This document shows positions 20,313 to 34,943 of a stretch of 34,943 nucleotides of DNA, one piece after another. The translations under genes and the position numbers were made by a program. Position 1 is the stretch's first letter. Each line of letters opens with the position of its first letter. The notes beneath the pieces were generated by a model. The model searched no databases and was not told the DNA's origin. It saw only the letters and a program-made list of their open reading frames with translations. The stretch is from Pseudomonadota bacterium (GTDB lineage Bacteria; Pseudomonadota; Alphaproteobacteria; Micropepsales; Micropepsaceae), in the NCBI GenBank assembly GCA_018242085.1, contig JAFECO010000689.1, positions 1 to 34,943 on the forward strand, written 5' to 3'.

Positions 20313-23159
20313 CTATCCGAAAACGTCGGCGGTTTGCCGGTTGCTGCCCCGCATCGAGCGGAACGTCCGGACCATGGCTTCATAAAGCGCCCACACCGTC
20401 AGGCTGCCCGCGAACCCAATGATGATCCCCAGCGGGCCGCCATTGATGTGCAGCCACCGGTAAGCCACCACATCGAAGGGCCAATGGAACAGATAGATAA
20501 AGAGCGTGGATTTGGCGATCGTGACGATGGGCGCGGCGATGACGCGCGGAAGCGGGACGGGCGGCATCCACAATAGAAGAAGCGTGCCCAGGCCCAGCCA
20601 ATAGGGCGCATGGTGCTGCAGCAGGTAATCGCCGCTCATGCCATCGATGGTGGTCAGTGCGCCCATGCAGCCGAACAGGATAGCCAGCGTGATCACCCGT
20701 TGCAGCTGGCTCTTGGCGCTGAACACCAACCAGCCCAGCGCGAACTGCCAGAGGAAGAATTGCGGCAGATGGCCGAACATCATGATGGGCGCGTGCACGG
20801 TCAGCACCATGATGTAATGCAGCAGGAAGGTTCCCGCCGTCAGCACCAGCCCGAACGCATAGCGATGTTTTTCGCCGAACGGAGCGACGCCCGGAATGAA
20901 GGCCAGGGCGCCCATGAAAAGAAGAATCTGGAACAGGACCTGCACGAACCAGGCGCCTTCCCACCATAGCGGCGACTCGGGCTCCAGGAAATTGTCGTAG
21001 AAGAAAATCGTGCTCCAGTGAAAGATGCCGTCGCCGACAAAGAACATCAGCAGCATCAGCATGGTCGGGATCACGACTTTCATCATGGTTCCGAAGATCG
21101 ACCGGCGCACCTGGCCGGGGTCGCCGTTCCAGGCGAATCGGGCAAAGCTCAACCCCGACAGCACGAAGAGGAGGCTGGGGCCGCCGGCGACGCTGGAATA
21201 ACGATTGTGCAGCGCCACGACGCCAAAAATGGCGGCGGCGCGCAACAGAACGTCCGGTGCGATGGTGGTGCTGGAGGAATTGGATCTTGGAATCTGTTCT
21301 AGCTCGGCGATCGACATATTTTCCCAGTTTTCGGGAATGCGGCCGATGAAATCTTCCAGCGCGGTGGAGACATCGACATAGGACAGGGAATCGCCGCCCA
21401 GGGACGAGAAGGATTTCTGCTCATCGACATATTTGAGATTGAAGGCGGAGGCGAAAATGTCGGCCACACTGGCGGAGGTGCGGCGGCGCATGCCCAGGAA
21501 TTCCAAGGCCCGGCCAGCCAGATCGGGTTTTCCCCCGGCCGGCAGGTCCAAAGCGGCGCGGGGGCGCTCCAGAACCGTGTCGTAGAGCTGGTCGCCATAT
21601 TCCGAAACCAGGCGCCTCCGGTCGATCTTGGAATTGGCGTTGAGAGGAAGAGTGTCGCGGTGGACGATCTGGTAGGGCAGCATGTAGCCCGGCAGTTCGC
21701 GACGGCAATGGCCAAGCAATCCGTCGCGGTCCAAAGCGCCATTGCCCTGGGTGGTGACGAAGGCGATCACGACCTGGCCCAGATCGGCATGCTTGACGCC
21801 GACCACGGCGGCCGTGTTCACCAGCCCGCTGGCATAGAGAACATCTTCGATCTCGGTGGGGCTGACGCGATAGCCGCTGGTCTTGATCAGATCGTCCTGG
21901 CGGCCGACGTAATAAAGCCGTCCCCCTTCGTCAGTGGTGACGATATCGCCGGACCAGACGCCGATCTCCGGCTGCGACCCCGGTGCCGCGGTTTGTGCGG
22001 GCGCCGGCCGGAAGACCTGAGCGGTGCGCTCCGGATCGTTCCAATAGCCCATCGCCACGGTGTCGCCGGTCTGCACCAGTTCGCCCTGCTCATTCGGGCC
22101 GCACAGCGTGCCATCGGCCCGCACGACATGGATCTTCGCCACCGAGATCGCCCGGCCCATGGAATTGGGATAGCGGTCCACTTCGCGGGGCGGAAGAAAA
22201 GTCGAGCGCAAGGTTTCGGTCTGGCCGTACATCAGGAAGATGCGGGCCTCCGGCGCCAGGCAGCGCAGCGACCGCGTGGCGCTTTCCGGCATGCGCCCGC
22301 CCGCGGCGGCGATGTAGCGCAAATGCTCGCGAATCTCCAAAGGCCAGTCCAGCGCCGTCAGCGCCACCAGGGCGGTCGGCACACCGGCAAGGCCGGTGAT
22401 GCGCTCTTCCAGCATCAGCTTCATCAAGGCCTGCGGTGTCACGTAATTGTGAAGCACGCCCGTGGCGCCGGCGTAAAAGCCGTTGAACAGCTGATCGAGC
22501 CCGAAGCCGAAGCTGTAATGGGGAAGATGCAGGATCCGGTCATCCGGATTGAGGCCCAGATATTCCGAGACGCATTGTGCCCGCGCGACGAAATTCTTGT
22601 GCGACAGCATCACGCCCTTGGGCTCGCCCGTCGAACCGGACGTGTAAAGGATGCCCACCATGTCGGTATCGGCGCCGCGCGGCCAGGTGGGCGCCTTGTC
22701 CAAGCCCGTCTCCAGAAACCGGTGCAGCGACTGGCTGGGCGCGCCCTTGGTTTGAGGCGGGGGCTCTTCGTCTTCGATGGAAATGATCCGCTGCAGCGAG
22801 GGGCAACCGGCCAGCGCCTCTTCCAGTTCGGGAATCCGGGCGCGGGAAGTGACGAGGAGCTTGATGCCGCAATTCTTGACCAGATGTGCGACCTGGGCGG
22901 GCCGCAAGGCGGGATTGATGGGCACGAAGACCGCATCGGCCGCCGCCGCACCCATGATCGCGACCGCTGCTTCCGGGCGCTTCTCAAGGAAAATGCCGAC
23001 CCGCTCGCCGGCACCGATCCCCGCCCGGCGCAAGGCATAGGCGAAGCGGCGCGCATCGGCGGCGAGCGTGGAATAAAGAACGGTCTCTTTCTGAAAGATC
23101 AACGCGGGCTTGCCGGGATACTGCGCCGCCGCACGAAAGAGGAGATCGTCGAGGGTCAT
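20313..23159 (-). CDS. Three-module fusion: AMP-forming acyl ligase, carrier domain, acyltransferase-3 membrane domain
   Basis: A 948-residue protein from ATG 23159 (TTG 23165 would add two residues). Residues 1-525 are an ANL-superfamily adenylating enzyme: YTSGSTGEPKG (172-182), YGQTE (311-315), GDIV (404-407), GYRVSPTEIE (429-438) and NSKIDRR with catalytic Lys511. Residues 560-625 are a carrier domain with Ser591 in LGGDSLS as phosphopantetheine site. Residues 635-935 are a multi-helix acyltransferase-3 domain with ALHNRYSSVAGGPSLLFVLS near its start. The ligase part resembles the XrtA-associated acyl-CoA ligase family. The chain would activate an acid, hold it as a thioester and pass it across or at the inner membrane to a glycan. 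The acyl substrate is unknown. Confidence 0.92.
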   Translation of the reverse strand: MTLDDLLFRAAAQYPGKPALIFQKETVLYSTLAADARRFAYALRRAGIGAGERVGIFLEKRPEAAVAIMGAAAADAVFVPINPALRPAQVAHLVKNCGIKLLVTSRARIPELEEALAGCPSLQRIISIEDEEPPPQTKGAPSQSLHRFLETGLDKAPTWPRGADTDMVGILYTSGSTGEPKGVMLSHKNFVARAQCVSEYLGLNPDDRILHLPHYSFGFGLDQLFNGFYAGATGVLHNYVTPQALMKLMLEERITGLAGVPTALVALTALDWPLEIREHLRYIAAAGGRMPESATRSLRCLAPEARIFLMYGQTETLRSTFLPPREVDRYPNSMGRAISVAKIHVVRADGTLCGPNEQGELVQTGDTVAMGYWNDPERTAQVFRPAPAQTAAPGSQPEIGVWSGDIVTTDEGGRLYYVGRQDDLIKTSGYRVSPTEIEDVLYASGLVNTAAVVGVKHADLGQVVIAFVTTQGNGALDRDGLLGHCRRELPGYMLPYQIVHRDTLPLNANSKIDRRRLVSEYGDQLYDTVLERPRAALDLPAGGKPDLAGRALEFLGMRRRTSASVADIFASAFNLKYVDEQKSFSSLGGDSLSYVDVSTALEDFIGRIPENWENMSIAELEQIPRSNSSSTTIAPDVLLRAAAIFGVVALHNRYSSVAGGPSLLFVLSGLSFARFAWNGDPGQVRRSIFGTMMKVVIPTMLMLLMFFVGDGIFHWSTIFFYDNFLEPESPLWWEGAWFVQVLFQILLFMGALAFIPGVAPFGEKHRYAFGLVLTAGTFLLHYIMVLTVHAPIMMFGHLPQFFLWQFALGWLVFSAKSQLQRVITLAILFGCMGALTTIDGMSGDYLLQHHAPYWLGLGTLLLLWMPPVPLPRVIAAPIVTIAKSTLFIYLFHWPFDVVAYRWLHINGGPLGIIIGFAGSLTVWALYEAMVRTFRSMRGSNRQTADVFG

Positions 23160-23452
23160 CCGCAAGTCATCCCAGGCATATGGCTACAATTCGCGTCTGC
23201 AAGTCCAACCCGGTCACCTGGGACATTCCCGAGATAGGGGCGGATTGGTGATCCCTTAAGGCCGCCATTCCATCGCCTATTCTCGGGCCAAACTCATTGA
23301 TAATCTGGAAAAGCCGTTCGGCTGGTTAACGGTCGCAGTTAATGCTTCGGGAGGAAATGTGCGACCAGGCCATTTTTCCGGGCGTCATACTAAACCGGGG
23401 CCGTCCGGCCCGCCACGGCTTTCCCGGGCCGGGTGCGGCCGGAAATAGCCGG
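23160..23452 (-). promoter_or_regulatory. 293-bp intergenic region upstream of the ligase fusion
   Basis: No gene is evident. Near 23396-23450, just after the SGNH gene stop, lie GC-rich inverted segments such as GGGCC-GTCC-GGCCC, which may weakly terminate the upstream operon. The remainder is long enough for a separate promoter for the ligase fusion, so that gene may be transcribed independently of the FkbH/MBOAT block. Confidence 0.35.
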
Positions 23453-24469
23453 TCATTCCGCCCGCGAGATGCCCTGCGGGGCATACAGTTCCAGCCGGTC
23501 GGCATAAAGCCGGGTGATTTCCTCCTGCGTGCGGCCCGAAAGCACGATCCCGAAAGACGGCTCATGATTCTGGATTGCGGCGGCGATCCGGTCGGACACG
23601 GCCGGCTGATAATGCGAGCCGTCATACGTCAATTTGGGATCGGACGTGACCTGGGACGGGATGGAGAAGTCATACATCTCGTCGAATTGGGCAGAGGTCT
23701 TTTGCAAGGCTTGCAGATAGAAGGGCAAAAGCCCCATTTCCTTGAATTGCGCGATCTTGTCGGCCGCCACCGGCGTGGCATAGGCCACCAGATGCGCCTT
23801 GGGAAAAATCTCCCGGAATTTGGCATATTGCCCCACGCTGTTCAGGCTCATATGCCATTTCTGTCCCGGCTTCAGCGTCATGTGCAGCACCGGCATGGTG
23901 CCGGCATCGGCACGGATCTGGCCGGTCAAGTCCTTGCCGAAATAGCGCGCCTTCGGCGATTGATCGAACAAGGTCTTGATCGACCAGGTGGCGACATCCC
24001 AGGAGAAATAATAATCCCAGAAATGAGGCGTTCTGTTCCGGAGAACATCCGGCGGCACATTGTTCGCGTCCGCCTGATCGATGAAATCGAAATCGTCCAC
24101 GCCGACCACGACCAGGTCCGGCTCCCGTTTGGCATTGTGCTTGATGTATTGCGCATAAGCGATCAACTCGCGGGGCGAGCCGTTTTCGAACGAGATCATG
24201 AAGCAGCTATGCCCCTTGATCGCATGCTCGCTCATCAAGCCCACGCGAGAGGCGCCGAATATGTAACAGTCATAATCGCGATCGCTGGCGGAAAACCGCG
24301 CCAGGCGCGCGATCCGTTCGTCCCAGGAGAAATTGCGGGGTTGAAGTTTGTTGCCGCCGAAGAACCACAAGGGATCGACCAGATAGTTCAAGAGCCCGAT
24401 GCCGCCCAGAACTGCCGCCACCAGAAGCGTCAGGGCCGTCAGATAAAGACTTGTCTTGTCCTTCGCCAC
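23453..24469 (-). CDS. SGNH-hydrolase-like membrane-anchored protein, MBOAT partner
   Basis: A 338-residue protein read from GTG 24469, ten bases after the MBOAT stop. Residues 8-30 form one N-terminal membrane anchor and the rest is probably periplasmic. FGASRVG (71-77) gives a Ser74 in the block I position of SGNH enzymes, GVDDFDF follows, and YDGSHYQPAVSDRI contains Asp283 and His286 spaced like the catalytic D-x2-H pair. MBOAT proteins of the AlgI/DltB class often work with such periplasmic partners (AlgJ/AlgX, DltD) that complete acyl transfer to a polymer. Similarity to a named member is low, so the assignment rests on topology, motif and neighbour. Confidence 0.8.
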   Translation of the reverse strand: MAKDKTSLYLTALTLLVAAVLGGIGLLNYLVDPLWFFGGNKLQPRNFSWDERIARLARFSASDRDYDCYIFGASRVGLMSEHAIKGHSCFMISFENGSPRELIAYAQYIKHNAKREPDLVVVGVDDFDFIDQADANNVPPDVLRNRTPHFWDYYFSWDVATWSIKTLFDQSPKARYFGKDLTGQIRADAGTMPVLHMTLKPGQKWHMSLNSVGQYAKFREIFPKAHLVAYATPVAADKIAQFKEMGLLPFYLQALQKTSAQFDEMYDFSIPSQVTSDPKLTYDGSHYQPAVSDRIAAAIQNHEPSFGIVLSGRTQEEITRLYADRLELYAPQGISRAE

Positions 24470-24479
24470 GGCGCGCCCG

Positions 24480-26033
24480 TCAGAATTGGAAATAAAGGAA
24501 TTCGGAATGCTGCGACAGGCTGGCGATCGCCAGCCCCGCGGCCAGTCCCATGGACACCGCCCATTTCAGGTCCGGCATCCATTCCAGAAGGCGATAACGG
24601 TTGGCCGCGATCTGGCCCAGCGCGGCGGGGAATTTGGCCATGATCTGCTGGGTATTGGGCAGGAACCAGGCCATTCCGAAGAAGGCCGCGATCCGCAAGA
24701 TGCTTTGCGATTCCGATCCGAAATTATATTCCCATCCGGAGAACGCGCCGCCGGCGTGCAGCCCGATCATGCCCGCAAGAAGCGCAGTCGCGTCGCCCAC
24801 CGTCCCGGCGCGGAAAAATACCTGCGCCACCAGCGCGGCAAGATAGGTCAAAAGCACTTGCATGATCACGGTGGCGGCCAGCGCGAGCCGGTTTTCCGGG
24901 TCCTGCCGCATCCGCGCTGGCGCGAAAATGCGCCAGGCGTGATTGACGATCAGATAGAGGCCGTGCAGCAGGCCGAATATGAGAAAGGTCAATCCCGCGC
25001 CGTGCCAGACGCCTGCCAGCACGATGGTGATGAGGGTGGGGATGGCGATCATGGTGACAAAGCCGCCCACCGTCTTGCTGTCGCGGGCGAGAATCGGCGC
25101 CCCGCGCGCGATGCGTCGGCGGGTGACCCAGAGCGCCATGGGATTGTAGAGATAGAGCGTGAGGTAGCGTGTCAAGGTCATATGCCAGCGCTGCCAGAAA
25201 TCGATGATGTTGCGGGCCTTGTAGGGCGAGTTGAAGTTCAAGGGGAAGCGGACGTTGAACATGTAAGCCAATCCGATCGCCATGTCGGAATAGCCGGAAA
25301 AATCGAAATAGATTTGAAGGGAAAAAGACAGCGCCGTCAGCCAGGCGGGGATGAGCCCCAGTGTGCCGGGCGTGTCGAAGCCGGCGCCGGACACCTGGCT
25401 CAAGGAATCGGCGATTAGAACCTTCTTGGCCAGCCCGATGATGAAAATGGTAAGGCCGACCGCCATGTTGCGGCGGCTGAACTGGTAGGTTTCGCTTTTG
25501 ACGAATTGGGGCATGATCTCCCGGTGATGGAGGATCGGCCCCGCGATCAGGTGCGGGAAGAAAGTGACGAACAGGCAGTAATCGAGAAGGCCGCGTTCCT
25601 TGGCCATGCCCTGGCGGCAATCGACCAGATATCCGATCTGGGTGAAGGTGTAAAAGGAGATGCCCAGCGGCAGGATGACGGGGTTGAGCTTCAGGCTGGT
25701 CACGCCGATGGAGTCCAGAAATCCCATCAAGGCGAAAAGATATTTGTAATAGACCAGGACCGCGAGGTTGGCGGTGATGCCGAGCGCCAGGATCGCGCTC
25801 TGGTGCAAATCGAATCCCTCATTGCGGGTGATCCAATGGCTGATCGAATAGTTGAAGGCGATCGAGCCCATCAGGATGAGCACGAAAGGCGGATTCCACC
25901 AGGCATAAAAAATCAGCGAGCTGACGACGAGCGAAAGTTCGGCGGCGCGGTGGTTAATCCGGCCCAGCAGGTAATAGGCCAGCAGCGCCAGCGGCATGAA
26001 GACGAAAATGAAAATGTAGGAGTTGAAGAGCAA
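24480..26033 (-). CDS. MBOAT-family O-acyltransferase, AlgI/DltB-like
   Basis: A 517-residue polytopic membrane protein. The start is taken as TTG 26033, because this gives the canonical AlgI-type N-terminus MLFNSYIFIFVFMPLALLAY and GGTAGG lies upstream; a TTG at 26066 would add 11 unusual residues. Family motifs include FYAWWNPPF, the VTFFPHLIAGPILHHREIMPQF segment, SGYSDMAIGLAYMF, FWQRWHMTLTRYL (His284) and VLAGVWHGAGLTF, where His344 is the likely catalytic histidine. These proteins move an acyl group across the inner membrane to a periplasmic acceptor. It is preceded by a free acyl carrier protein and followed by an SGNH-like protein, which points to ACP-supplied acyl groups. Confidence 0.94.
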   Translation of the reverse strand: MLFNSYIFIFVFMPLALLAYYLLGRINHRAAELSLVVSSLIFYAWWNPPFVLILMGSIAFNYSISHWITRNEGFDLHQSAILALGITANLAVLVYYKYLFALMGFLDSIGVTSLKLNPVILPLGISFYTFTQIGYLVDCRQGMAKERGLLDYCLFVTFFPHLIAGPILHHREIMPQFVKSETYQFSRRNMAVGLTIFIIGLAKKVLIADSLSQVSGAGFDTPGTLGLIPAWLTALSFSLQIYFDFSGYSDMAIGLAYMFNVRFPLNFNSPYKARNIIDFWQRWHMTLTRYLTLYLYNPMALWVTRRRIARGAPILARDSKTVGGFVTMIAIPTLITIVLAGVWHGAGLTFLIFGLLHGLYLIVNHAWRIFAPARMRQDPENRLALAATVIMQVLLTYLAALVAQVFFRAGTVGDATALLAGMIGLHAGGAFSGWEYNFGSESQSILRIAAFFGMAWFLPNTQQIMAKFPAALGQIAANRYRLLEWMPDLKWAVSMGLAAGLAIASLSQHSEFLYFQF

Positions 26034-26103
26034 GGCGCCTACCCATCCCCATGCGGAAAGCCGCAAGCGGCTTTTCCGGTCCCCGCCGGACGGTTTGCCA
26101 TCC

Positions 26104-26349
26104 TTAAGCCCCCTTCTTCTTCCGGATGAGAGCGACGAAGTCGCCGATTTCCTTCAGCGACTCGATTTCCGCCGTCCGGAACTTGACGCCGAAGCGCATC
26201 TCCGTCGCCACGACGATGGCGATATTCTTGAAGGAATCCCAACCCGCAAAATCGCCGGCAACGCTGCTGGGCGTAAGGATGATCGTGTCGTCGTCCAGCG
26301 CTTCGCGGACGACTTCCGTTATTCCCTCCATGATTTCAAGATCGGTCAC
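26104..26349 (-). CDS. Acyl carrier protein
   Basis: An 81-residue four-helix carrier protein from GTG 26349, two bases after the FkbH stop, so the two are probably coupled. The phosphopantetheine site is Ser39 in GWDSFKNI; the replacement of the usual DSL by DSF is seen in specialised, non-fatty-acid carriers. Acidic helix I and helix II flank it (EVVREALDDD, IAIVVATEMRFGVKF), and the tail is Lys-rich (IRKKKGA). It is most likely the carrier loaded by the neighbouring FkbH-like protein and used by the MBOAT enzyme. It needs a phosphopantetheinyl transferase from elsewhere. Confidence 0.93.
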   Translation of the reverse strand: MTDLEIMEGITEVVREALDDDTIILTPSSVAGDFAGWDSFKNIAIVVATEMRFGVKFRTAEIESLKEIGDFVALIRKKKGA

Positions 26350-26351
26350 GA

Positions 26352-28244
26352 TTAATTTTCCCCAATTTTAATGTGCGTATCCACTGGTATGTACGTCTCG
26401 ACCGGAAGACGCCAGAAGCTGCCACCAGCATCATTGGCGCCGTCTTGTTCGAAGCCCAGCTTCGCATAGTGATCGCGGACAAGACCGTTCTTTTCCGTGG
26501 GACGGAATTCGCCGACCAGGGCGCGATAGCCTCGCTTCGATGCTTCCCCTACGAGAAGATTCAAAGTCGCCTGCTCGACCTGCCGGCCCAGAACGCGGCA
26601 GCTCATCAGCCAGGTGTCGATCATCAGCTCGCCAGGACGCGAGGATGGCTTGGCGATGACGACGGCGATCATGCCGTTATCGCCATATTTGTCGGTCAGG
26701 CGGATCTGGAAGGTGACGGTATCCTTGTCGGCCATCGCCGCTTCGACATCACGCTCGGCATAACGCCGGGTGGTGAGGTTGAACTGGTTGGTCTTGTTGA
26801 TCAGCTGGGTGATGCGCGCCTGACCGACGGAGTCGAAAGGCGTGACCCGCATCTCCATTTCCAGGCTTTTCAGATAGGCGGGAAGGTCGGCAGTGGCCTG
26901 GCGGGCAAATTCACGTTCCGCATTGGCCTGGTATTGACCGGCGCGGGAGAAATCCTCCCCCGTCATCCGCACGCTTTCGAAATATCCCCCATCGGCGATG
27001 CATTTCGCGTAGAAGGCCGCGTCTTCGGGCAGCTCCGGCACCGCCACCATGGGCAGTTCGCGGCGCACCAGATTGCGTTCGAACGGATTGTCGTCGGCGA
27101 ACACCAGGGCATCCAGCCCGATATTGATCTCAGCCGCGATGGCCCGAAGATTGGTGGCCTTGTCGGACCAGTTGGCGATGAAGGCGGCGAAAGACGAACG
27201 CTTCAGCACCATGTCCGGATGGCGGGCGAACGGCGTCAGCGCGATTGTCTCGTCATTCTTGGAACAGACCGCCAGGATGATGCCGCGCTCCGACAGGCGC
27301 TGGGCATAGTCCTGGAAGGCGATGAAGGCTTCACCTTCGGAGCTGCCCTGGCCCAGAACGATGCCTTCAATGCCGTCATCGCCGATCACCCCGCCCCACA
27401 GCGTATTGTCCAGGTCCAGCACCAGGCATTTGTAGGAGCGGCCGCGCTGGGCCGCGACGATGCGGGCCACCAGATCGCCATAAAGGGGCGCCATGGGCGG
27501 GGCGATCTCGATTTTCGCCCGGTGCCACAAGACGGGATCGTGCCAATTGCCGAGGCCATCCTCCATCGCGCGCGTATCGAGCGCCAGGATGTCCACGCCA
27601 GCCTCGTCGGCGCGCTCGCGGATGCGCTGATTGATGCGCCGGGTCATTGCTTGCGGCGAGCCGGGCAGGCGATGTTCGTTGCTGCCCAGAAGCGCCGGAA
27701 ACAGCGGCAGGATAGTCTGTTGGATGATGGGGCAGGCGAAGTCCTGGCGGGCCATGTTCCAGACATGGGCGCAATGATCGGCCGCATCTTCGACCGCGCG
27801 GTCCGAAGCGGCGGCATCGCGGCCGGCATTGGCTTTACCCAGCGCATGGCGGGCGTCGAAAGCGAAAAGAATCGCGTTGGGCTTGAAGGCGTGAAGCGCC
27901 GAAGCTGGATCCATCAGATCCTGCAGATATTGGCCAAAGGGGTTGGTATAGATTTCGGCCCACATCCCGCGGCGCATGAACGCCACCCGGATGGCGGGAA
28001 TGAGATGGGAGACCATCGACGAGCCCAGGATCGCCAGGCGCACCGCCGGCAATGCCAAACCGGTGGGAGCATGTTCGCCGAAATTCTTCCGGGCCAGCTT
28101 GTCCAGACGCTCGGTGCGCAGGAAATCCATCCGGCAATTCGCCAGGGAAACGAAACGATCCCATCCCGCCGCGCCGCCCAGCGCGCGAACCTCATCGCTC
28201 CATTGCGGGTTTTCCGGAAGCCACCAAAGATCCGATACTGACAT
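26352..28244 (-). CDS. FkbH-like HAD-superfamily (HAD-IIIC) protein
   Basis: A 630-residue protein from ATG 28244. Residues 60-265 form the N-terminal SGNH-like region of FkbH proteins (AILGSSMVSHLIPAIR, 71-86). Residues 270-420 are the HAD domain: LDLDNTLWGGVIGDDG (276-291) holds the catalytic Asp pair, then CSKND (327-331) and FADDNPFERN (382-391). The C-terminal 150 residues have a GNAT-like fold (INKTNQFNLTTRRY, DKYGDNGMIAVV, MSCRVLGRQVE). Characterised FkbH proteins take glycerate from 1,3-bisphosphoglycerate and load it onto an ACP. With an ACP two bases downstream, glyceryl-ACP or a related hydroxyacyl-ACP is the best guess for its product. Confidence 0.92.
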   Translation of the reverse strand: MSVSDLWWLPENPQWSDEVRALGGAAGWDRFVSLANCRMDFLRTERLDKLARKNFGEHAPTGLALPAVRLAILGSSMVSHLIPAIRVAFMRRGMWAEIYTNPFGQYLQDLMDPASALHAFKPNAILFAFDARHALGKANAGRDAAASDRAVEDAADHCAHVWNMARQDFACPIIQQTILPLFPALLGSNEHRLPGSPQAMTRRINQRIRERADEAGVDILALDTRAMEDGLGNWHDPVLWHRAKIEIAPPMAPLYGDLVARIVAAQRGRSYKCLVLDLDNTLWGGVIGDDGIEGIVLGQGSSEGEAFIAFQDYAQRLSERGIILAVCSKNDETIALTPFARHPDMVLKRSSFAAFIANWSDKATNLRAIAAEINIGLDALVFADDNPFERNLVRRELPMVAVPELPEDAAFYAKCIADGGYFESVRMTGEDFSRAGQYQANAEREFARQATADLPAYLKSLEMEMRVTPFDSVGQARITQLINKTNQFNLTTRRYAERDVEAAMADKDTVTFQIRLTDKYGDNGMIAVVIAKPSSRPGELMIDTWLMSCRVLGRQVEQATLNLLVGEASKRGYRALVGEFRPTEKNGLVRDHYAKLGFEQDGANDAGGSFWRLPVETYIPVDTHIKIGEN

Positions 28245-28388
28245 CAAAAATCCAACTCAAAGAAAACCGAAAAACATTTTGCCTGACCGCCTGCCGCACA
28301 TGGCAGACGATCACACACGGCAGGACTGGCGTTCGACAGATTGCGGCTTGCCCGTTTTGGCGCGAGCATCACGGCGCAGCTCCATCGC

Positions 28389-29705
28389 TCAGGGGCGGTG
28401 CGCGGTCTCTCCCCCGCGTTCGCTCCAGGTCCGCCGCATGGCTGCGTCGATCGGCATCACGAAGCCGGCGTTCAGCTCCGACATGCGTGAGATCCCCACC
28501 AGCGACATGTTGCGCTTCAACTCCTCGGCCATCAGGGCGATGGCGCGCGCGACCCCGCCCGTGCCCCCGATGCTGGCGGCATAGAGGAAGGGACGTCCCA
28601 CAAAAACGAAATCCGCGCCCAGCGCCAGCGCCTTGATCACGTCGGTGCCCCGGCGCACGCCGCCATCCAGCATCACCGGCAAGTCGGGGATCGCGGCCTT
28701 GATCGCGGGTAGCACATGCAGCGGCGCCACGGCACCGTCGAGCTGGCGGCCGCCATGGTTGGAGATGATCACGCCATCCACTCCGCATTCGCGCGCCTGT
28801 GCCGCATCGGCGGCGCAGAGAATGCCTTTGAGCACCAGCTTGCCCTTCCACAGGCTGCGCACCAGATGGATTTCCGGCCAGCCCATGCGGTCGACGGCGC
28901 CGCCGCCCCTTATATCGGCCCGGGCCAGCACCGAGGGGCCGCGCACGGCGCGATAATTTTCAAGATGCGGCAGCCCGCGGCGCAGCACCGTTTGCGCCGC
29001 CGTGCCGATCAGCCAGGAGGGATGGCTGATGCCGTCCCACAGGATTCGGGGCGTAAGCTTGAGCGGCACATTGAAGCCGTTCTGCTTGTCCACCTCCCGG
29101 TTTCCCGGAACCGGAACATCGGCGGTGATGACCAGGGTCTTGAAGCCGGCGGCCGAGACGCGTTCCAGCAGGCGCCGGATCTGATCGGGATGGCCGGGCA
29201 GATAGGCCTGGAACCAGGTGCCCGGCGCCGCGCGCTGAACCTCTTCCATGGCCGTGAAGGAAGCGCCACTCAGCACCATGGGGATATTCGCGGCTTTCGC
29301 GGCTTCGGCCATCGCCACATCGCCGCGATAGGCGAAGAGCGCGGCGGCGCCCATCGGCGCGATGCCGAAGGGCGCCGCATGATTTTCGCCGAACAGGGTG
29401 CATTTGGGATCGCGATGAATGGCGCTGGTGAGCACGCGCGTGACCAGCGCATAATCCTTGAAGCTGTCCCGGTTCTGCCGGATCGAGGCATCGGTTTCGG
29501 TGCCGCTGGCGGCATAGCCGTACAACATGCGCGGAAGTTTTTTGCGCGCGGCCGCTTCGAAATCATCCAAGCAAAGATATTTGTTCAGGTGTTCGGCGAT
29601 GCGGATCCTGGAATCGGCTTTGGCGCTTGCGGCAGTGCTGGAATCGCGGCTGACGGCGGCCGCCTCGTTCCGCTGCCAGCCGGCGGCCGATTGCGTATCC
29701 GTCAT
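28389..29705 (-). CDS. FMN-dependent alpha-hydroxy-acid oxidase/dehydrogenase
   Basis: A 438-residue TIM-barrel flavoenzyme of the lactate oxidase/glycolate oxidase family. ATG 29705 follows GAGGGCGGGGAACGAG, a good ribosome binding site; 66 bases upstream another frame start would add improbable residues. Conserved features are YGYAASGTETDASIRQNR (62-79), PMGAAALFAYRGD, WFQAYLP (164-170), LVITADVPVPGNRE, the KGI Lys293, and SNHGGRQLD with catalytic His317 and Arg320; DGGVRRGTDVIKALALGA and GRPFLY close the phosphate site. It oxidises a 2-hydroxy acid to the 2-oxo acid. The first 30 residues are a low-complexity extension. As first gene of the block it may supply or modify the acyl precursor, or be metabolically separate. 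Confidence 0.93.
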   Translation of the reverse strand: MTDTQSAAGWQRNEAAAVSRDSSTAASAKADSRIRIAEHLNKYLCLDDFEAAARKKLPRMLYGYAASGTETDASIRQNRDSFKDYALVTRVLTSAIHRDPKCTLFGENHAAPFGIAPMGAAALFAYRGDVAMAEAAKAANIPMVLSGASFTAMEEVQRAAPGTWFQAYLPGHPDQIRRLLERVSAAGFKTLVITADVPVPGNREVDKQNGFNVPLKLTPRILWDGISHPSWLIGTAAQTVLRRGLPHLENYRAVRGPSVLARADIRGGGAVDRMGWPEIHLVRSLWKGKLVLKGILCAADAAQARECGVDGVIISNHGGRQLDGAVAPLHVLPAIKAAIPDLPVMLDGGVRRGTDVIKALALGADFVFVGRPFLYAASIGGTGGVARAIALMAEELKRNMSLVGISRMSELNAGFVMPIDAAMRRTWSERGGETAHRP

Positions 29706-29936
29706 CTCGTTCCCCGCCCTCAATGAAGCCGTAGTGCAACATGCGGCCGGCTCGCTCCGCCTGACTGGCAACCCGTCCGGGCAGCCTTTCCGGCTTATAC
29801 AGTGCCGCCTGCGTCCATTGCGCGAACCTTAGCGTGGATTGGTTAAATTGGGTGACGGTTTTGGCGGCATTTTTGCGGTACATCCAAGACATGCCGATAG
29901 CGTCCGGAATCGCGCGGGATATGGGCCATCTTTCCC

Positions 29937-32194: not shown

Positions 32195-33517
32195 TCAGTC
32201 GGTAATCGAGATCCTGGAATAAATGTCGCCCTGAGCGGCTCTTCCAAGATGCCCTTCGCCAAGGTGGCAGACAACGGCGGTGCCGGAGGCGGCCGCGCGA
32301 GATCTATAGAGGATCACATTCTCGTCGTTCGCCGAGAGTGTGCCGCGCACGAAAGTGCAAAGAAGTGGCTGCTCCCCAACAGGCCGGATTATACGATCTG
32401 CATATTTGCGGCAGAAAAACTCCTTACCGATCCGGACCGATTCACGAACTTCCTCATGGCGGTCCAGCGCGCCATCAAGAGAATAAATCGTGTGGTAGGG
32501 GCCGGTCATTCCGCGGGCCAGATGTGTTCTCAAACTGAGGTAAAATGAGGTTTCAGCATTTTGTGGCTGGTCATTGAATGCAATGAATGAAGCTCCGGTC
32601 AGGCCGAACAATCCTTTGCAGGAGCTATAGGCAATGACATCGGCCAGATCGTGATCATCTTCCAGGCCGATGCTGCCGGTGGCATCGGCCATGAATCTTG
32701 CTCCCAGACGGTCCGCAAGCCTGCGCATGGCACGGATATCGTTCCGCAACCCCACGCTTGTTTCCGTGTAGACCGTCAGCAGCCAGTCGTAATGGCCGCT
32801 GGCCTGATCTGTATCGCCCACCTGTACCACATCGACATGCGTAACCTGGGAGTTCAGGCGGCAAGCCGCTGCCAGCCGATCGGCGTAGTATCCCGTCGTC
32901 ACGACAAGCACACGGCCGGCGACAAAATTACGGATCGCTATCTCGAGCGCCAAGCTTGCGGAACCCTGCAGGCGCGCGATCTGTGAATGGCCGCTCATAG
33001 CCTTCAGGCGGGTCAGTACGCGGTCTTCGGTCGACTGGTACTGGCGGTCATCGCGCCCGAAGCAAGGATCTAGCCTTTCAAGGTTTTCGGGAAGCAGGCT
33101 CCCAGGCCCAGCCGTAAAGATAGCCTTCCGATTTTTAACGCTCACCATCGCGCCGAGAGAGCGAATACGCATCTCCGAGCTGCTTACCCCTTCGGTGCGG
33201 GGAACTGTAATCAGCTTTGCCTTCGTAATGATGTTACTGTTGTCGCTGCCGTGGAAGAGTGCATCGATCCGATGCCGTACCAGAATGTCGTCGGTTATCG
33301 CCCATGGCACTTCTACCACTTCATCGACATATTTGATGGATTCCAGAACTTCCTTCCGATGCGCGAAGGACAACTCCGGTTGATAGCCCTTGCGCTTGAA
33401 GACTTCCTCGTCGGACGTAAGGCCGACCACCACGGTGCCGATTTCCTTCGCTTTCTTGAGCAGGCGAATGTGACCATGATGAATAATGGTCGCGGACATA
33501 TCTACCATGACGCGCAT
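32195..33517 (-). CDS. Fusion of HxGH cytidylyltransferase and 2-aminoethylphosphonate transaminase-like domains
   Basis: A 440-residue protein from ATG 33517, preceded by CCGGAG at good spacing. Residues 1-125 are a nucleotidyltransferase of the cytidylyltransferase superfamily: MRVMVDMSATIIHHGH with HHGH at 13-16, LTSDEEVFKRKGY, and RTEGVSSS (107-114), the ISTT-like phosphate loop. Residues 130-440 are a fold type I PLP enzyme like 2-AEP:pyruvate transaminase (PhnW): FTAGPG (134-139), ADATGSIG with Asp278, and SSCKGLFG with Lys301 for PLP. With PEP mutase and phosphonopyruvate decarboxylase directly upstream, it should aminate phosphonoacetaldehyde to 2-AEP and couple it to CMP. CMP-AEP would then be a donor for polymer decoration. 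The specificity of each domain is inferred. Confidence 0.9.
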   Translation of the reverse strand: MRVMVDMSATIIHHGHIRLLKKAKEIGTVVVGLTSDEEVFKRKGYQPELSFAHRKEVLESIKYVDEVVEVPWAITDDILVRHRIDALFHGSDNSNIITKAKLITVPRTEGVSSSEMRIRSLGAMVSVKNRKAIFTAGPGSLLPENLERLDPCFGRDDRQYQSTEDRVLTRLKAMSGHSQIARLQGSASLALEIAIRNFVAGRVLVVTTGYYADRLAAACRLNSQVTHVDVVQVGDTDQASGHYDWLLTVYTETSVGLRNDIRAMRRLADRLGARFMADATGSIGLEDDHDLADVIAYSSCKGLFGLTGASFIAFNDQPQNAETSFYLSLRTHLARGMTGPYHTIYSLDGALDRHEEVRESVRIGKEFFCRKYADRIIRPVGEQPLLCTFVRGTLSANDENVILYRSRAAASGTAVVCHLGEGHLGRAAQGDIYSRISITD

Positions 33518-33545: not shown

Positions 33546-34682
33546 TCAGCGCATCTCGCCCAGCGAAGCCATGAAATCGACCTTGGCTTCGGCAGGCGTG
33601 CGTTTTGGGCGGCCCAAATTGTCTCTCGCGCCCGTTCGGGCGCATATTTCTACAAAGCTCGAATTCTGCGATGCGGCTGCATCACGAATGGCTGCGTCGA
33701 TCTCGCTGGCGTCGCTCGCTTTGCGAACCGATCCATAGCCACAAGCGCGGGCAATCGATAGCATGTCGATGTCAAAACCTTTTGTAGGCTGACCCCCGAC
33801 AGAGTCGTGCGCGCCGTTGTTGATTACGGCATGAATGAGATTGGGAATGGCGGCGGCGGTAGTCGACCCGCCCATATGCATGATGAATGCACCATCTCCA
33901 TCAATGCAGATGACTTTCCGCTCGGGTCGGGCCAGGGCGAGCCCGCAAGCGATTTGGAGTGCGTGCCCCATGGCGCCGACCGTCAGGAAATCGTGCCCCG
34001 GTTCGCGGCCCCTTGCCAGGCGAATCTCGTAGAGCTCGCGGGAGGTCTTACCCGTGGTCCCGACCACAATGACGTCTTCAGGAAGCGCATCGACCAGCGC
34101 TTTGAGAACGTCTTCCCGCGTCATTCGATATCGCGACGCCGCTGCCGGATTCTTGGCAGCGGCGAATGTATCTTTGCGCACCACAAGTGCCACCGGCCGA
34201 GATTCGTTTCTCATTCTAGCCAGCAGCGCGATCACCCGCGCCTCAGGATTTTCGGTTTTTGCACCCAAGATTTCGTAAGGGATATCAAGACAATCAAGCA
34301 TCGGACCGGTTATGCGGCCCTGTTTGACATGCTGGGGCTCGTCCTTGAGTTGAATGCCGTCCACCAATTCGCCGCGCCAGCCGATCATCATCAACACGGG
34401 GATTCCATAGACTTCCGGATCCATCAACGACGTCAGCGGATTGACGGCATTGCCCAGGCCAGAATTCTGCAGATAAACGCATCCGGCATTTCCCGTACCC
34501 AGATAATAACCGGCTGCGAGAGCGATCGCAGAACCTTCGTTGGCGGCGATGACATTTCGCTCGGCCGGTATGGATCGGGAGACTTCGGCGCAAAAGGACT
34601 GGAGCAGGGAGTCGGGCACGCCGGCGAAGAAACGGATACCTTCGCGATCGAGAAAAGAGAGGAAGGTGTCGGCGGCAATCAT
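33546..34682 (-). CDS. ppd: Phosphonopyruvate decarboxylase
   Basis: A 378-residue thiamine diphosphate enzyme that converts phosphonopyruvate to phosphonoacetaldehyde, the irreversible step that pulls phosphonate synthesis forward. ANEGSA with Glu49 is the ThDP-activating glutamate. WRGELVDGIQLKDEPQH (102-118) is a typical Ppd stretch. The ThDP/Mg motif runs from GDGAFIMHMGG (262-272) to VINNGAHDSVGGQPT (286-300). Length is normal for a full-length single-chain Ppd. Its ATG is one base after the TGA of the upstream PEP mutase gene, so they are coupled. The transaminase fusion follows 28 bp downstream. Confidence 0.95.
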   Translation of the reverse strand: MIAADTFLSFLDREGIRFFAGVPDSLLQSFCAEVSRSIPAERNVIAANEGSAIALAAGYYLGTGNAGCVYLQNSGLGNAVNPLTSLMDPEVYGIPVLMMIGWRGELVDGIQLKDEPQHVKQGRITGPMLDCLDIPYEILGAKTENPEARVIALLARMRNESRPVALVVRKDTFAAAKNPAAASRYRMTREDVLKALVDALPEDVIVVGTTGKTSRELYEIRLARGREPGHDFLTVGAMGHALQIACGLALARPERKVICIDGDGAFIMHMGGSTTAAAIPNLIHAVINNGAHDSVGGQPTKGFDIDMLSIARACGYGSVRKASDASEIDAAIRDAAASQNSSFVEICARTGARDNLGRPKRTPAEAKVDFMASLGEMR

Positions 34683-34683
34683 A

Positions 34684-34943
34684 TCAAACCGTTCCGGGAA
34701 TAAGATTGAGTATCTCGTTTACCGGCATGCATTTGGCGTCGACCTCGAGGCATCGGCCATTCTCCAGAATGGTCCGTGCGGTGTTAAGCATGGCCGGATA
34801 GGAAGAGCGTAACATTTGGTTGGCGTAAATCACCACATTGACGCCGTGCGCTTCGAGCTCCTTCTCATAAACTGAGTTAAAGCTGGTCGGCACCACGACC
34901 AGAAGGGCGTCGTTGTTCACGGCGCGAAACTTGTCGCAGAATT
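34684..34943 (-). CDS. pepM: Phosphoenolpyruvate phosphomutase, C-terminus only
   Basis: About 86 residues are visible; the rest lies beyond the right edge. The tail reads FCDKFRAVNNDALLVVVPTS, then NVVIYANQMLRSSYPAMLNTA and EILNLIPG, which is characteristic of the C-terminal part of PepM. PepM rearranges PEP into phosphonopyruvate, forming the C-P bond that starts nearly all known phosphonate biosynthesis. The catalytic loop (EDK-x7-NS type) is outside the window and cannot be checked, nor can a possible N-terminal nucleotidyltransferase fusion. The stop is one base from the ppd start. This gene and ppd make a phosphonate pathway assignment firm. Confidence 0.93.
   Translation of the reverse strand, partial: FCDKFRAVNNDALLVVVPTSFNSVYEKELEAHGVNVVIYANQMLRSSYPAMLNTARTILENGRCLEVDAKCMPVNEILNLIPGTV

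Follow-up and report, generated by a model that had tools for sequence, protein, structure and literature searches.

What is made by a protein that joins a cytidylyltransferase to a transaminase in a single chain and is encoded directly behind phosphonate genes? The question is raised by one end of the window, the whole stretch of DNA analyzed here, which is an entire contig of 34,943 bases from a 2.83-Mb assembly with 709 contigs. The presumed donor when bacterial surfaces are decorated with phosphonate is CMP-activated 2-aminoethylphosphonate (AEP), and we consider it probable that the fusion protein is a bifunctional enzyme leading from phosphonoacetaldehyde through AEP to CMP-AEP in a phosphonate-tailoring pathway.

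A one-chain enzyme for these steps has a precedent. In PMC6697681, Tde1415 of Treponema denticola (PntC-AEPT; PDB 6PD1/6PD2) makes CMP-AEP and transaminates AEP; its N-terminal domain is LicC-like (PF12804), and the two AEP cytidylyltransferases characterised are both LicC-like. A preliminary description of this locus had stated that PntC-type enzymes are LicC-like and sometimes fused to a transaminase, in agreement with this account. PMC6697681 puts fusions of PF01467 to PepM at 23.6% and, in the parts covered, contains no mention of PF01467 fused to a transaminase. No title or abstract opening on a PF01467-AEPT fusion stood among the matches listed by full-text searches of open-library papers (supplements excluded), and term look-ups in PMC8931226, PMC9381506 and PMC12723261 returned nothing on one. 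As far as these searches go, the fusion family is undescribed within the literature covered.

Architecture of the fusion protein

The fusion gene occupies positions 32195 to 33517 on the minus strand as a single open frame of 440 amino acids, and its reading as an N-terminal HxGH cytidylyltransferase followed by a C-terminal pyridoxal phosphate (PLP) transaminase, a proposed CMP-AEP synthase, draws on Pfam and NCBIfam matches and on a second member of the family. The cytidylyltransferase domain (residues 1-121, PF01467; 33155 to 33517, minus strand) is supported by Pfam, a structure model and Foldseek, and its sequence includes an HHGH motif at residues 13-16 (33470 to 33481, minus strand) and an RTEGVSSS motif at residues 107-114 (33176 to 33199, minus strand). 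The transaminase domain is short (about residues 132-440; 32198 to 33124, minus strand) and is recognized by NCBIfam, by PDB sequence match, by alignment and by the same end in the second member. It contains both Asp278 and Lys301; the latter (32615 to 32617, minus strand) is the expected PLP-binding lysine by alignment with 21 AEP-transaminase and 5 BhcA-like rows and with 1m32. The presence of HHGH, RTEGVSSS and Lys301 in one chain confirms what the preliminary description had observed.

The pattern HxGH...RTxG[IV]S[ST] occurs at the observed spacing in 0 of 20,000 shuffles of the fusion protein. Pfam matches PF01467 to residues 11-94 at 52.9 bits (cut-off 21), and no other Pfam family reaches E 0.001 on the protein, the transaminase half being unmatched. 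The top NCBIfam model is TIGR03301 (PhnW-AepZ), with 68.4 bits over residues 155-365 and a cut-off of 360.8, followed by the glycerol-3-phosphate cytidylyltransferase model TIGR01518, with 61 bits and a cut-off of 165.4.

A second member and the distribution of the family

The fusion family is real and rare. A second full-length member of 435 amino acids (L113:3495-4802) is found in G1010, one of 303 genomes of another class. It is 49-50% identical to the window protein (50% over residues 2-424, E 4.2e-135), with identical domain order and the same short C-terminal end, and its Pfam match is again PF01467 alone; in both members the best NCBIfam match of the C-terminal domain is an AEP transaminase model. 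The fusion of an HxGH-type cytidylyltransferase to a PLP transaminase, as originally proposed, is thus borne out by the PF01467 match and by a second protein of the same architecture. The two members share 76 of 125 residues in the N-terminal domain (60% over 124 columns). Because 30 of the 36 residues at 276-311, around Asp278 and Lys301, are identical, as against 135 of 305 across the transaminase domain, the PLP site is probably constrained; such conservation is as expected of a working PLP site and argues for constraint.

An assembly chimera, or the frameshifted remnant of two genes, might be suspected in one contig of a 709-contig assembly, and the window protein has 306 residues counted from its TxGP motif where the AEP transaminase of L092 has 359. 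The G1010 member shares both the domain order and the short C-terminus, which makes a chance fusion or frameshift very unlikely, and with this second member lying in another class the explanation was set aside as having almost no probability.

Searches with the full protein covered 61 related genomes, including its own and 36 others of the genus (E 1e-3), two overlapping draws of 385 and 318 genomes of the class (E 1e-15), 398 genomes of the phylum (E 1e-15), 78 (E 1e-20) and 48 (E 1e-15) genomes of two other classes, and the 303 genomes of the further class that holds G1010 (E 1e-13). Besides the window protein itself, the G1010 fusion is the only full-length relative in these genome searches, which score the best few first-look candidates per genome and could let weak extra copies escape. 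Three further genomes of the G1010 genus are without the fusion (1 of 4 positive, E 1e-13). None of the 42 matching records in a plasmid collection, and none of the 14 in a phage collection, covers 80% of the query, and three scans of viral contigs led to one and the same contig, which matched in the N-terminal domain only. A genome contig collection returned only a decayed N-terminal fragment. This fragment, in a Paracoccaceae MAG (L003:2244-2548), is a frame-broken remnant of a cytidylyltransferase from the group to which the window domain belongs, with 51% identity in the best segment (residues 1-101).

Gene neighborhoods of the two fusions

In the window the operon runs pepM-ppd-fusion. 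The ppd gene (33546 to 34682, minus strand), 28 bases upstream of the fusion, encodes a phosphonopyruvate decarboxylase of 378 amino acids that scores 452.2 bits with TIGR03297, over the equivalog cut-off of 312.5. One base ahead of the ppd start lies the stop codon of pepM, whose 3' end (34684 to 34941, minus strand) is cut by the contig edge; just the last 84 positions of the PEP mutase model TIGR02320 (200-283 of 284; 96.1 bits) are within the contig, with the EDKxxxxxNS region outside, and the missing start could carry a cytidylyltransferase of its own. The other PF13714 protein of the source genome (contig C576) reaches only 45.8 bits with TIGR02320. Because Ppd scores over its cut-off and the end of a PEP mutase is present, phosphonoacetaldehyde should be at hand. 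Ppd is uncommon company in this class, being present at E 1e-35 in 42 of 372 genomes, its own included. The three operon pieces have a G+C content of 53 to 58%, against 62% for bases 1-31000, and this lower value fits acquisition from elsewhere.

Beyond the operon, the contig is taken up by an exopolysaccharide locus. Among 14 window proteins scanned with Pfam, a subset of the open reading frames, are Wzz-like, polysaccharide deacetylase (with DUF3473), FemAB-like, asparagine synthase, sugar transferase, MBOAT, AMP-ligase with acyltransferase, FkbH-type, GT2 glycosyltransferase and PIG-L deacetylase proteins; a CDP-alcohol or LicD-type transferase domain, a potential user of CMP-AEP, is found in none of the 14. 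Within the locus, positions 20313 to 29771 hold AMP-ligase plus acyltransferase, MBOAT, FkbH-type and FMN-dependent dehydrogenase genes, which suggests further decoration of the polymer.

In G1010 the order is pepM-fusion-ppd, the fusion starting 9 bases after a PEP-mutase-like gene and ending 42 bases before a Ppd-like gene. Both fusion loci (2 of 2, a small number) therefore share a gene run with pepM-type and ppd-type genes, in two different orders, and the phosphonate context of the fusion holds: in the window it is in one run with pepM and ppd, and in the distant genome G1010 with genes resembling the two. The surroundings in G1010 include NeuB-family, cytidylyltransferase and UDP-GlcNAc 2-epimerase genes, together with genes that by eye are glycosyltransferase-like. 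The PEP-mutase-like protein (L112:17258-18484, 408 amino acids) scores 70.5 bits with PF13714 (cut-off 31.5) and 86.3 bits with TIGR02320 (cut-off 319.6), and the Ppd-like neighbor scores 184.6 bits with TIGR03297, under the cut-off. In alignment the PEP-mutase-like protein has ESKRFPKVNS in place of EDKxxxxxNS, DVDMLYN where four compared PepMs show DTGG, DNGG, DSGG or DTGYG; its C-terminal part is also longer. Its chemistry is perhaps altered, and the second locus, with both its PepM-like and Ppd-like proteins divergent, may make something else.

The divergence of these two partners also favors an alternative for the fusion as a whole: the transaminase domain would act on another aldehyde or keto compound or be structural, and the N-terminal domain would activate a different phosphate or phosphonate, such as glycerol-3-phosphate, phosphoethanolamine or the product of the altered G1010 enzyme. 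With the window Ppd over its cut-off and a PEP mutase end beside it, we regard this alternative as unlikely, although not negligibly so; further evidence on it comes from each of the two domains.

The N-terminal cytidylyltransferase domain

By its score over the cut-off and its HxGH and RTEG motifs, the N-terminal domain belongs to the HxGH superfamily PF01467. Profile searches assign it neither to the LicC family, since PF12804 (NTP_transf_3) is not matched and PF01467 alone is, nor to the glycerol-3-phosphate cytidylyltransferases (GCT), with 61 of the 165.4 bits of TIGR01518. Its nearest relatives are the domain of the G1010 fusion (60%), a viral contig protein (56%), and proteins of genomes G142 (54%) and G077 (57%), the last three values being from blastp. 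Two trees, with 19 and 20 rows, recover this group at a support of 91/89 and 90/88, short of full. The GCT clade is separate from it at 100/99 in both trees. A clade of Fom1 and three PepM-fused domains (100/99 and 99/99) likewise excludes the window domain.

The domain had been called Fom1-like, a label that the trees do not sustain: because the Fom1 and PepM-fused rows group without it, membership in their clade was dropped, and what is still allowed is a sister position, since constraining both fusion domains to group with the Fom1-type rows gives p-AU 0.072, above the 5% rejection level.

The structure model of this domain is good, with pLDDT of at least 90 in 10 of its first 12 ten-residue blocks. 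Foldseek gives TM-scores (by target) of 0.83 for 1coz and 0.81 for 2b7l, both GCT, 0.76 for 5x3d (Fom1) and 0.74 for 4zcp, a choline-phosphate cytidylyltransferase; by E-value Fom1 comes first. The domain is like TagD/GCT (1COZ, 2B7L) and ethanolamine-phosphate cytidylyltransferase (3ELB) in fold and motifs, whereas GCT differs in forming its own clade and in a TIGR01518 cut-off that the window domain does not reach. Sequence and fold of the domain do not reveal its substrate. A group within the glycerol-phosphate/ethanolamine-phosphate superfamily appears to be the source of its recruitment.

Two relatives stand in other company. The G077 protein (L024:433-1887; the same gene is L027:8484-9938) has a CDP-alcohol phosphotransferase (PF01066, 37.7 bits) fused ahead of the cytidylyltransferase and is a candidate one-chain enzyme for activation and transfer of an alcohol phosphate, and in G142 the relative lies two genes from a protein that by eye is CDP-glycerol phosphotransferase-like. 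In both of these genomes, the ones tested, a search for PEP mutase gives no match at E 1e-5, and the group is therefore not restricted to phosphonate pathways; this favors the reading in which the window domain activates another phosphate. The viral relative (L026:9395-9751, an IMG/VR contig) is a stand-alone cytidylyltransferase among genes that by eye include radical-SAM-like ones. A scan of viral contigs with GCT sequences found 240 relatives, of which 80 were kept and used as alignment rows only; the alignment for folding, A6, contained 20 of those 80 together with L026.

The C-terminal transaminase domain

The best PDB sequence match of the C-terminal domain is the AEP transaminase 7e7g (E 1e-9), followed by other class V transaminases; the Treponema fusion 6pd1 matches at E 0.0018. 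All three AEP transaminase models stay under their cut-offs, with 68.4 of 360.8 bits for TIGR03301, 42 of 400.8 for TIGR02326 and 37.6 of 296 for NF010006. The TIGR03301 score was rejected as proof of an AEP transaminase, for five other class V transaminases score higher, at 105.9 to 163.1 bits.

The tree of this domain has 29 rows: the two fusions, 21 AEP transaminases, 5 BhcA-like proteins and one Ruminococcus protein. Seventeen of the 21 come from Ppd neighborhoods and were named by similarity and place, the others being L005, L012, L023 and L114. NCBIfam was applied to five of the 21, and each of these passes at least one AEP transaminase cut-off. For the four of the five BhcA-like rows scanned, the best model is BhcA, under its cut-off. 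A search of viral contigs for more AEP transaminases gained one. The two fusion domains pair at 100/100 and side with the AEP transaminases rather than the BhcA-like proteins (91/76, not strong), outside the 21 rows; their branch measures 7.69 changes per column and comes with a long-branch warning.

At least 20 of the 21 AEP-transaminase rows agree in 83 columns, of which the window domain keeps 34 and the G1010 domain 31, with 27 kept by both; counted on the 17 rows, the window domain keeps 36 of 94. Lys301 and Asp278 align with residues held by all 21 rows, and Glu252-Thr253 are also kept. Both members have lost the RFTPP arginine. A C-terminal arginine column held by 21 of 21 rows, corresponding to the substrate arginine that we take to be Arg340 of PhnW, aligns to glycine or a gap in the fusion. 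An arginine six residues from the end, R435, is present in both members and, judged by eye, may replace it.

Structure prediction adds little for this half, which was modeled poorly twice (273 of 440 residues under pLDDT 50 in the first model, a mean pLDDT of 48.7 in the second); Foldseek ranked 7e7g first for the second model, to which little weight is given. The earlier assignment as an AEP transaminase stands in part: the PLP lysine and aspartate are kept and NCBIfam ranks an AEP model first, but the domain lies outside the 21 rows on a long branch with 34 of 83 columns. PhnW/AepZ (1M32, 7E7G) supplies both the closest PDB sequence and the top NCBIfam model for the domain, which differs from it in being divergent and shorter. 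On alignment and tree it is best described as a long-branched subfamily near but outside the known AEP transaminases, and it appears to have been recruited from their vicinity. The branch length and the lost columns favor a different substrate or a structural role for this domain; against that, the PLP lysine, the aspartate and their surroundings are its best-kept part.

Other phosphonate clusters of the class

The window domains were compared with all 41 other Ppd neighborhoods of the class. Within the stretches available, several ending at contig ends, none of the 41 contains a cytidylyltransferase-transaminase fusion. The three Ppds nearest to that of the window (50, 48 and 42%) follow PepMs with a PF01467-like domain on the N-terminus and precede alcohol-dehydrogenase-like genes; Pfam assigns PF01467 and PF13714 to the one PepM scanned and Fe-ADH to the two dehydrogenases scanned, the third dehydrogenase being labeled by eye. 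These cassettes look like Fom1-kind hydroxyethylphosphonate cassettes. The pepM end in the window is also nearest to the three PF01467-PepM fusions (E 8e-23 for L062, then 2e-21 and 1e-17), with L101 at 9e-11.

These neighbors, together with the first rank of Fom1 by Foldseek E-value, are what would speak for an N-terminal domain that makes CMP-hydroxyethylphosphonate, as in the cassettes with the nearest PepM and Ppd. The domain is outside the Fom1 clade, though a sister position is not strongly barred; no reductase gene is seen beside the fusion, and a transaminase is fused instead. We judge a hydroxyethylphosphonate product improbable.

In the remaining loci a PepM of about 550-590 amino acids with a separate transaminase is common, and the 41 loci yielded 17 transaminase open reading frames. 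A search for ExKxxxxxNS, blind to PepMs that deviate elsewhere in the motif, recovered a PepM from 31 of the 41 loci, and every one of these has EDK. In the window's own genus (genome G031), L101 holds a cluster of a PepM that is PEP_mutase plus NTP_transf_3 by Pfam, the LicC-like type, with Ppd and a separate transaminase-like gene. It shares with the window the clustering of pepM and ppd with a transaminase-like gene, and is unlike it in that the LicC-like domain is on PepM and the transaminase, labeled by similarity, is separate; this same-genus relative seems to have the LicC-like route instead.

Proposed function and relation to known systems

For CMP-AEP synthesis, the reading preferred here, PepM would supply phosphonopyruvate and Ppd would decarboxylate it to phosphonoacetaldehyde, which the C-terminal PLP domain would aminate to AEP. 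The N-terminal HxGH cytidylyltransferase would then join AEP and CTP to give CMP-AEP and pyrophosphate, and CMP-AEP would serve as donor for decorating a surface polysaccharide or lipid. We infer both substrates of the fusion from context only, and likewise the sequence in which the steps follow and the role of CMP-AEP in decorating a surface glycan.

Tde1415, as described in PMC6697681, is like the window fusion a single chain with an N-terminal cytidylyltransferase and a C-terminal transaminase in a phosphonate gene context; its cytidylyltransferase is of the PF12804 LicC-like family, in contrast to the PF01467 HxGH type of the window. Fom1 and the PF01467-PepM fusions share with the window an HxGH PF01467 domain in a phosphonate pathway, but Fom1 is fused to PepM, acts on hydroxyethylphosphonate and falls in a separate clade, whereas the window fusion carries a transaminase. 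By tree and profile score, the fusion does not belong to PntC, to the Fom1 clade or to the curated AEP transaminase families.

Because its cytidylyltransferase and transaminase appear to be recruited from other groups, the fusion would be convergent with PntC-AEPT, and it probably represents a second design of single-chain CMP-AEP synthase. The single-chain, non-homologous route first suggested for this locus accordingly keeps its fusion, its context and its non-LicC domain, loses "Fom1-like" and retains "AEP transaminase" in weakened form. The fuller claim, of a second and independently evolved bifunctional CMP-AEP synthase built from an HxGH, non-PntC family and a transaminase subfamily that is new, and encoded in one case beside an ESK PEP-mutase-like partner that motif-filtered surveys would miss, we favor by a small measure. 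If it is true, the PF01467-transaminase fusion is a second solution to the same two steps from another protein family, and more gene clusters become readable as AEP decoration. It would show, too, that inventories built on Pfam and EDKxxxxxNS can miss members, because Pfam leaves the transaminase half of both fusions unmatched and the G1010 PEP-mutase-like protein lacks the motif.

Another joining of such domains is seen on a Ruminococcus albus plasmid (L108:3896-6272), where a cytidylyltransferase and, by eye, an oxidoreductase-like domain are fused, adjoin a class V transaminase and lie between LicD genes; this locus perhaps encodes another activated amino-alcohol pathway.
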